Assembly (NCBI GenBank): GCA_944392965.1
Contig: CALXYM010000003.1
Coordinates: 124,001-188,000 of the forward strand
Length of the DNA: 64,000 nucleotides
From: an uncultured Spirochaetaceae bacterium
Lineage (GTDB): Bacteria > Spirochaetota > Spirochaetia > Sphaerochaetales > Sphaerochaetaceae
Direction of reading: 5' to 3'
Shown: positions 55,447 through 57,810 of the stretch, one piece after another
How the letters are laid out: each line of letters opens with the position of its first letter
How positions within the stretch are numbered: position 1 is the stretch's first letter
Position numbers and translations under genes: made by a program
The notes under the pieces: generated by a model
Database searches by the model: none
Told to the model about the DNA's origin: nothing
What the model saw: the letters and a program-made list of their open reading frames with translations, nothing else

Positions 55447-56211
55447 ATGAAGAATAGGGTTATACTATCATCTTTAGTTCTTTCCCTTTTTTTATTGCTA
55501 TCTTCATGTGGAATTCCGAACTGGTTTTATATATCATCCAGTGATGCGAGAATCTTAAATTCGACCGTAGGGACAGATCGGACAACGACTATCACTGTTG
55601 AAAGTGGCTATGACCTTGATATCGAGGTTTTTCTGCTTTATACAATTCACAATGCGACGGGCAGTACAACACCTACGGGAAGTACTATCAGATCTGGTTT
55701 AACATCTGATTTCAGATCAAGATATAGAATAAATGATGCGAATTCAAATCGATTCTCATCTGGAACAAATCCTGTTGCCTCATATACGACAAATGATCTT
55801 ACCTTTAATTTATATCCACTAGACGCTGTAGATTCCTCTGCGCCAAATAACAGCGGAGCTGATCCTCTATTTTTAGAGAACAAACCATCAACTCAGAACA
55901 GGATAACTTTGACGCTAGATTATGAGATTAGAGATGGATATCTATATGTGACAATGACAGATGATGACTCAAATACTCAAGAATATCAATTACAGCGGTA
56001 TAATGGAAATGGGATATTCTCATCTAGTGGCCTTGATCAAGATAGTAGAAATGATCACACGGAAGTTGACTTAGGAGGAAGTTACAACCTCTACGTTTAT
56101 CCTGTTGTCTATATCAGTTCAAATAGTACCTCTCCTGACACAGGACATGGCTTTAACAATCTCATGATGATAACTCCAACAAGTACCCAGTTCATCGACC
56201 TGAGCATCTAA
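55447..56211 (+). CDS. Lipoprotein of unknown function
   Basis: 254 residues. Signal peptide with lipobox LLSSC (Cys about 21), so it is lipid-anchored. The rest is beta-rich, Ser/Thr/Asn-rich and of low complexity, with no recognised domain. AGGAGG lies before the ATG. It lies 32 bases after the TPR gene and may share its transcript. Beyond it starts the 1.17-kb gene-free region. Confidence 0.6.
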   Translation: MKNRVILSSLVLSLFLLLSSCGIPNWFYISSSDARILNSTVGTDRTTTITVESGYDLDIEVFLLYTIHNATGSTTPTGSTIRSGLTSDFRSRYRINDANSNRFSSGTNPVASYTTNDLTFNLYPLDAVDSSAPNNSGADPLFLENKPSTQNRITLTLDYEIRDGYLYVTMTDDDSNTQEYQLQRYNGNGIFSSSGLDQDSRNDHTEVDLGGSYNLYVYPVVYISSNSTSPDTGHGFNNLMMITPTSTQFIDLSI

Positions 56212-56269
56212 GGATTTTTTTCTTTTGTTAATATTTTAAGCGTATTTCAAAGCATAATAAAATGTCGTA

Positions 56270-56401
56270 CTCAGCATATGCAAGAAAAGCTAATGCCTGG
56301 TACAGAACAGTCATGTGCATATCCTGAGCTGTAGTAGGAAAAACTCCGCGTCAAGGAGGAGAGGATTACCTACATCTCGGGCCGTTAGAGGAAGTTTTTT
56401 T
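56270..56401 (+). ncRNA. Candidate structured RNA with two mutually exclusive stems
   Basis: Stem 1: CTCAG-C-ATATGCA (56270-56282) with TGCATAT-C-CTGAG (56316-56328), one C-C mismatch. Stem 2 reuses the same CCTGAG (56323-56328) with CTCGGG (56376-56381), plus TGTA/TACA and an inner CTCC/GGAG (56344-56347 with 56355-56358). Seven T's end the segment at 56395-56401. No known RNA family was recognised and no clear promoter was found. Confidence 0.4.
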
Positions 56402-56734
56402 ATGGACTGAACTACTATATTTCCAAGAAGTCTGTCAGAGTTGATGAAATTGTTTTCTCTGTTAAGAAAAGAAACAATTATGTTTTAAGCATCTGGCAAC
56501 GAAATACATGAGGATGTCAATGCTTTGATCAATCTACAATATGGATAACATACCGTACGCAGGTAAACCTGAAATGGAGCATGTAGAAAAATACTCCTAT
56601 TAATTCGGTTTTTCTTATAGATTTCCGACCTTTTACCATTTTTCAATTTCTATGTCTCATCGCAAAAAAAGATTTAATATCCCATTCTTTTCTCTTTTTA
56701 AGCACAAAATATGAAAATAAATATAAGTTTTTTC

Positions 56735-56763
56735 TTGACATCCCCCTGAAACTGGACTAAGAA
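56735..56763 (+). promoter_or_regulatory. Promoter of the candidate ncRNA
   Basis: TTGACA (56735-56740, perfect), 17 bp, TAAGAA (56758-56763). The region around it is AT-rich and the start would be near 56770. Confidence 0.45.
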
Positions 56764-56769
56764 TATTAT

Positions 56770-56919
56770 CAAGGAATTAAAGAGGCGTTTATACATTCCT
56801 CTTTAGGAAGGCGCTTCAATTCCGTGCTCTCAAATGCGAAGATTAACTTCGCTCATATCTTACCCTTAAAGGGTACATTGCCTTAAGTGAGAGGAGCAAA
56901 GCCAGCTCCTCTCTTTTTT
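56770..56919 (+). ncRNA. Candidate small RNA with strong terminator
   Basis: About 150 bases. Two competing 5' folds: AAAGAGG (56779-56785) with CCTCTTT (56798-56804), or GGAATT with AATTCC (56773-56778 with 56818-56823) plus GAGGCG with CGCTTC (56782-56787 with 56812-56817). These are followed by hairpins GCGAAG/CTTCGC (56836-56852) and ACCCT/AGGGT (56862-56874). The 3' end is a nine-bp terminator GAGAGGAGC/GCTCCTCTC (56889-56913) and six T's. No ORF of note. Not recognised as 6S, SRP or any known family. Confidence 0.5.
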
Positions 56920-57378
56920 ATGCACATGGTGTTTCTTTTCATAATGACAGAATCAGGTTAACTTAACATGTTTTCATCCGTTAATGTTATTAAAAATAGG
57001 GTAGGTTGGGCTTTTATCGATTTATTATATATCACGTAAATTAATTATATTTGAAATATATTTTACTTTATACTATTTATTTTCTCAAATTAATAAAATA
57101 GATATATTGTAAACTATTACAATTAATAAATTATACTAATCTAATAAAATAATTAATACATTAAATATTACATATATTTTAATAATTCACTATTTTAATT
57201 AATATAAGATTATAAAGAGTTCAAAACTATAATTATCCTAATATTATATTTAATATGAGCTATTAATATTATCAGTATATTAATAGCTATGGTTTAAAAT
57301 TTACTCCGTAATTCTCAATCTAGAAGAATTGTATATAATAGATATTCTGTCAACTCCAGTATTATTTTCCCTGAAGAG
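56920..57378. other. Gene-free stretch with an extreme AT-rich island
   Basis: The part from about 57030 to 57300 is close to 90% A+T, against roughly 57% around it, with no open frame over 60 codons. It contains a perfect 12-bp inverted repeat AGCTATTAATAT/ATATTAATAGCT (57258-57269 with 57277-57288) next to the phosphatase gene end. No DnaA-box cluster was seen, so an origin is not supported. Confidence 0.6.
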
Positions 57379-57810
57379 TTAATCGATGGATAAGATAATA
57401 GTGAGTGCTTCAAGAATATCAACATAGGTAGCATCGAAATTATCAGTGAACCATGGGTCTGCAATATCCCTGGTAAGCATTGGATGTATATTGCTAAAAT
57501 CCTCTCCTTGGAACATTCTCTCTATATTATACCTGTTATTCCTATCCATATAGTAGATTTCATCGAAATTGAGAAGATCATCTCTCGTAATCTGCCTTGA
57601 ACGATGTCTGATGACAGGAATTCCTTCTCGAGAGAGCTTATTCACAGCAGGTGGATACATCGTAGAGCCTATCTCTTCACGGCTTGTAGCAGCACTGTCT
57701 ATATAGAAATCATCAGTCCTTCCGGCCTTGTTTATCATGTACTGTGCCATGGATTGAGCCATCTGAGAGCGGCATATATTCCCATGACATACGAAAAGAA
57801 TTCTTCTCAT
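57379..57810 (-). CDS. Low-molecular-weight protein-tyrosine-phosphatase family protein
   Basis: 143 residues. The phosphate loop CHGNICRS places the nucleophile at Cys8 and Arg14, and the general acid is Asp118 in DIADPWF, which fits the LMW-PTP fold (arsenate-reductase relatives lack this DP). Substrate unknown. An ATG further upstream gives 14 extra residues, but the one at 57810 begins the canonical MRRILFVCHGN and has a promoter exactly placed for a leaderless start. Alone on the minus strand. Confidence 0.85.
   Translation of the reverse strand: MRRILFVCHGNICRSQMAQSMAQYMINKAGRTDDFYIDSAATSREEIGSTMYPPAVNKLSREGIPVIRHRSRQITRDDLLNFDEIYYMDRNNRYNIERMFQGEDFSNIHPMLTRDIADPWFTDNFDATYVDILEALTIILSID

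Follow-up and report, generated by a model that had tools for sequence, protein, structure and literature searches.

Bacterial trans-acting intergenic small RNAs (sRNAs) have their own promoter, stable hairpins and an intrinsic terminator, contain no conserved open reading frame (ORF) and show a narrow phylogenetic range. Other described RNAs share part of this layout: 6S RNA is a stand-alone structured RNA of similar length, the tracrRNA of type II CRISPR-Cas systems combines hairpins with a terminator, and terminating riboswitches have a helix which overlaps the terminator stem and encloses conserved linkers. None of the literature titles consulted concerned an RNA of the genus studied here.

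We analysed a locus within a 64,000-nucleotide stretch of spirochaetal DNA (the window, whose positions are used throughout), for which a first-pass annotation had proposed a free-standing sRNA with a promoter, a switchable fold and a strong terminator. Judging from its conservation, this is very probably a genuine stand-alone small RNA gene of about 150 nt.

Conservation and genomic location of the RNA

When 60 related genomes were searched at the DNA level, two strong homologues emerged besides the window, in G017 (92%) and in G010 (84%). A covariance model was built from these three sequences, and its use on 48 genomes of the genus added G063. The RNA is found in four of the 48 (E 6e-35 to 9e-43), three of which built the model, so that only G063 is an independent match, while the other 44 of the 48 have no strong match to the model. 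A covariance search had been suggested as the check on the candidate, and two compensatory pair changes were found, as described below.

Five further weak matches in the genus (E 0.026–0.72) were judged to be due to chance. In the family, the matches at E of 0.01 or better come from four of 139 genomes, and in a sample of the class nine of 394 genomes reach E 0.1 or better. Four of these nine are the known carriers, and the other five matches (E 0.0026–0.056) are no more than chance gives, since the E-values are per genome. For the weak matches in G041, G129 and G002 the places themselves were read, the rest being judged from model alignments or scores only. Specifically, the matches in G041 (L059) and G002 (L041) appear to fall on the terminator together with the 3' end of, respectively, an ORF and a gene, and that in G129 (L058) adjoins a Cas9-like ORF; a partial match at L047 corresponds to the start of a lipoprotein ORF.

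All four genomes carry the RNA on the same strand, downstream of rpsA and upstream of a convergent lmwPTP gene; in three of the four, TPR and lipoprotein genes are listed in the interval that separates it from rpsA. Identity amounts to 75–85% over the RNA and 60–73% over the promoter, and falls to 37–50% in the 3' flank and 22–42% in the 5' flank, the latter comparison being a weak control, as the genes are spaced differently there and part of the alignment is coding sequence. Thus, a promoter, an RNA and a terminator are conserved at the same locus in four genomes amid poorly conserved flanks, which, together with the compensatory changes, bears out the proposal of a free-standing sRNA. The conserved promoter and terminator signals of its own are those expected of a stand-alone sRNA gene.

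Outside the four carriers, the genus loci L050 and L056 share this gene order; by eye they show only A/T-rich sequence at the site, and neither matches the model. An lmwPTP match was found in 41 genomes of the genus, four of which carry the RNA. In 26 further genomes of the genus, one lmwPTP neighbourhood from each (75,543 bases in total, some cut by contig ends) gave no model match above 13 bits with the filters off, and the remaining 11 of the 41 were covered by the whole-genome model search only. The clade of gut spirochaetes bearing the RNA presumably comprises Candidatus Ornithospirochaeta and allies. As a side observation, locus L053 (2334–4200) carries two similar lipoprotein-like ORFs in tandem, with one in the other listed loci.

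About 410 bp downstream of the RNA, at window positions 57332–57353, lies a 22-base putative dif-like element, TATATAATAGATATTCTGTCAA. It was met in 25 out of 139 fetched loci, many of them overlapping, and is conserved beside lmwPTP in many loci of the genus. GC skew becomes negative from about 58 kb on, with a further dip at 42–48 kb. The RNA locus, near this change in skew, is probably situated at the replication terminus. In a relative, Microvirus-like genes (major head protein and pilot protein; L051, 13903–17190) adjoin a dif-like element with two mismatches. Both the conserved element near the RNA and this arrangement in a relative would fit the idea that the RNA is a non-functional leftover from an insertion at the dif-like terminus site. 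We consider such an origin very improbable, in view of the conservation of the RNA but not of its flanks, of the compensatory changes, and of the lack of any match in phage or plasmid collections; in the viral scan, 14 contigs share a 16-base word, and two gave only 13-bit model matches. Upstream of the RNA, the segment 56270–56410 is G/C-richer and shows inverted repeats by eye, and is not conserved in the alignment of the three relatives.

Promoter, terminator and coding content

The promoter TTGACA-17-TAAGAA (56735–56763, plus strand) is present as first described, with the -35 box TTGACA at 56735–56740, a 17-base spacer and the -10-like TAAGAA at 56758–56763, and its -35 box and spacing are kept in the three other genomes. 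By eye, TTGACA/T lies 17 bases 5' of TAAGAA, TATCAA or TAACAA in all four, and the same spacing precedes the tmRNA and the 6S candidate of the window genome; the signal scan lists the promoter alternatively with an 18-base spacer and AAGAAT. At the other end, the nine-bp intrinsic terminator with six T's (56889–56919, plus strand) was also found, with its stem at 56889–56897/56905–56913, conserved in all four genomes, and T6 at 56914–56919.

By count alone these signals show no excess over chance: on both strands of 56000–57800, six promoter-like sites were found against 10.2 expected, and one terminator, that of the sRNA, against 0.7 expected. The case for the sRNA draws its weight from conservation.

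The modelled part of the RNA, supported by the covariance-model matches and by fold z-scores of -3.7 to -5.6, spans 56773–56919 on the plus strand, and its true 5' end would be at about 56768–56773. These roughly 150 nt, first described as free of any ORF, hold no conserved one, according to the ORF list over 56740–56930 and the alignment of the four genomes. With 20 aa as the minimum length, the plus strand of that interval yields only GTG ORFs, of 20 and 24 aa. An 11-codon reading from ATG 56834 lacks the ATG in two of the four genomes and meets an early stop in G017.

Secondary structure and covariation

The window RNA folds with a z-score of -4.66, and the values across the four RNAs are -4.66, -3.70, -5.56 and -5.18, none of 200 shuffles being as good in any of the four. 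The window's reverse strand likewise does better than its shuffles (z -3.76), so that the strand cannot be told from the fold by itself.

The four or five hairpins initially described are present in the window RNA. Specifically, a long 5' hairpin (56773–56823, plus strand), the minimum free energy (MFE) structure of the isolated 5' domain in all four RNAs, is made of an outer helix P1, GGAATT (56773–56778)/AATTCC (56818–56823), a helix P2, GAGGCGTT (56782–56789)/GGCGCTTC (56810–56817), and an inner helix P3, TTCCT (56796–56800)/AGGAA (56805–56809). It is followed by the P4 hairpin GCGAAG/CTTCGC (56836–56852), the unpaired linker TCATATCTT (56853–56861), whose first eight bases are invariant in all four, the P5 hairpin ACCC/GGGT (56862–56874), aligned across the four genomes, and a second unpaired linker, ACATTGCCTTAAG (56875–56887), with the same 13 bases in all four and, in G010, one extra T ahead of the final G. 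In the four-genome alignment the hairpin loops, those of P4 and P5 included, vary, and the unpaired segments are invariant or nearly so.

Two pairs show double-sided compensatory changes, against none in six slid controls. P2 shows a C-G to U-A change and, besides, a position that reads U-G, C-G or U-A, and in P4 the closing G-C is U-A in G010. In G063 the pairing of P2 is broken at one place by an A-A mismatch, and RNAalifold favours another 5' arrangement than the long hairpin. The secondary structure is conserved, within the limits of four sequences, and since 35 of 500 shuffles also attain two double changes and the sequences are only four, the covariation support is thin.

Competing helices at the 5' end

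The first reading of the sequence had placed a switch in the 5' part, with AAAGAGG/CCTCTTT and GGAATT/AATTCC as mutually exclusive pairings. Both pairings exist, and AAAGAGG (56779–56785)/CCTCTTT (56798–56804), an alternative hairpin over 56779–56804 on the plus strand, excludes the inner helices of the long 5' hairpin. In a true two-state switch, the choice between the two folds would hide or expose a pairing site. The competing strands are present in all four genomes, and in G017 the alternative helix belongs to the best fold at most lengths between 73 and 117 nt and at full length. On the other hand, in the isolated 5' domain of all four RNAs the long hairpin is the MFE structure (-14.2 to -18.5 kcal/mol), the alternative helix being less stable by 3.0–7.3 kcal/mol, and the AAAGAGG/CCTCTTT strands are nearly invariant, with one A-U to G-U change and no double-sided one. 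While the alternative hairpin is the best fold of prefixes of about 30–43 nt in all four species, three of them keep it in the best fold only at these lengths, up to 40–43 nt, which fits a folding intermediate. The folding predictions thus suggest that the pairing is most likely short-lived. We regard a two-state switch as quite unlikely, and the switch first put forward as only partly supported.

A helix competing with the terminator

Prefix folding points to a possible antiterminator, CTCTCA (56827–56832)/TGAGAG (56888–56893), which spans 56827–56893 on the plus strand and encloses P4 and P5. The overlap of CTCTC/GAGAG with the 5' arm of the terminator exists in all four genomes. When transcription has proceeded 5–9 nt into this arm, CTCTCA/TGAGAG is in the MFE structure of all four RNAs; once the whole arm is transcribed, the competing helix shifts register to TGCTCT/GGAGCA in three of the four.

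These features would suit a riboswitch-like RNA in which a bound protein or ligand, by favouring CTCTC/GAGAG over the terminator, leads to read-through, as would the enclosed linkers, nearly invariant next to variable hairpin loops. Such a device appears unlikely: no compensatory change is seen in the competing helix, the predicted fold of complete transcripts leans towards the terminator, and in all four genomes the RNA is followed by the convergent lmwPTP gene, the ORF lists of the RNA–lmwPTP interval covering three of them. No same-strand gene that a cis-riboswitch might control directly downstream was seen ahead of lmwPTP. In a related and more speculative form, to which we give little credence, the RNA would be a self-terminating sensor: a ligand or protein bound to the 3' domain inside this helix, where the invariant linkers lie, would decide between a 150-nt regulator, ended at the terminator, and a longer transcript antisense to lmwPTP.

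Comparison with known RNA families

No Rfam family matches positions 56700–56960, either at the gathering thresholds or at E up to 10, in agreement with the original remark that neither 6S, SRP RNA nor tmRNA was recognised, and these RNAs, 6S as a candidate, were placed elsewhere in the window genome. Specifically, tmRNA and RNase P RNA both lie elsewhere in the window; the SRP model does not match the sRNA, and SRP RNA is located elsewhere in all four genomes. The 6S model RF00013 does not match it either, and a separate 6S candidate occurs at G000:C4:28881–29069.

This divergent 6S candidate (L133, 1882–2070) is below the Rfam cut-off in the genus genomes and sits at a conserved locus. The match in the window genome is weak (18.5 bits, E 0.146), and the gene downstream of it recurs at five other matches in the genus and at the above-cut-off 6S RNA of G037. 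Among the three other carriers of the sRNA, this search covered G017 and G010 and gave no 6S match in either.

A further possibility is that the RNA is a distant or detached tracrRNA for Cas9, as cas9 is present in three of the four genomes and the weak model match in G129, a member of another family, adjoins an ORF which we take to be Cas9, recognised by its N-terminus and not by profile search. We regard this as virtually negligible. The best complementarity of the RNA to the CRISPR repeats of its own genome is at the level of shuffled sequences: in three genomes, with either orientation considered, 94–200 of 200 shuffles score as high. The absence of an anti-repeat led us to reject a tracrRNA for the three genomes tested. 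In addition, an anti-repeat of 21 bases (95%) adjoins the window genome's own array, and the repeats differ among genomes while the RNA is conserved. The CRISPR loci themselves (L117, L118 and L119) have Cas9 and differing repeats, the Cas9 ORF of the window genome measuring 1170 aa and that of G017 1369 aa.

Discussion

Starting from the observed conservation, locus, fold and promoter and terminator signals, we infer how the RNA is transcribed, pairs and finds its targets. It would be transcribed from a housekeeping-type promoter and end at the intrinsic terminator; the hairpins and the terminator would then protect it and present its invariant single-stranded segments. The segments CCGTGCTCTCA, TCATATCT and ACATTGCCTTAAG could pair with mRNAs in trans, in the absence of Hfq or CsrA. 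Our best reading, to which we would give an even chance, is that of an Hfq-independent, stand-alone sRNA acting in trans via these segments, probably by antisense pairing.

As to partners, neither Hfq nor CsrA was found in any of six draft genomes, in searches with positive controls. Judged by these drafts, the RNA fits neither an Hfq-dependent sRNA nor a CsrA sponge of the CsrB/RsmY type. As to targets, G-U-tolerant patterns for two of the invariant segments, run on the four genomes, revealed no conserved target at a ribosome-binding site and, with the RNA's own copy excluded, no clear excess over a reversed control pattern.

The locus adds a well-supported, undescribed RNA gene to gut spirochaetes. 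With no Hfq and no CsrA found in the six genomes searched, it could show how such bacteria employ RNA regulators that do without these common partner proteins; in other respects it is an sRNA of an ordinary kind, confined to one lineage.

Set against the systems introduced above, the RNA has the hairpins and terminator of a tracrRNA, and the weak match in G129, but no anti-repeat, that of the window genome lying beside the array. It shares with terminating riboswitches the helix overlapping the terminator and enclosing conserved linkers, whereas no same-strand gene is seen ahead of the convergent lmwPTP. From 6S RNA, which it approaches in length and in standing alone, it differs in being multi-hairpin and not a rod, and in not matching the 6S model. 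In conclusion, the likeness to bacterial trans-acting intergenic sRNAs extends to promoter, hairpins, terminator, lack of a conserved ORF and narrow range, the differences being that searches of the host genomes gave no Hfq and no CsrA, and that the RNA matches no Rfam family.
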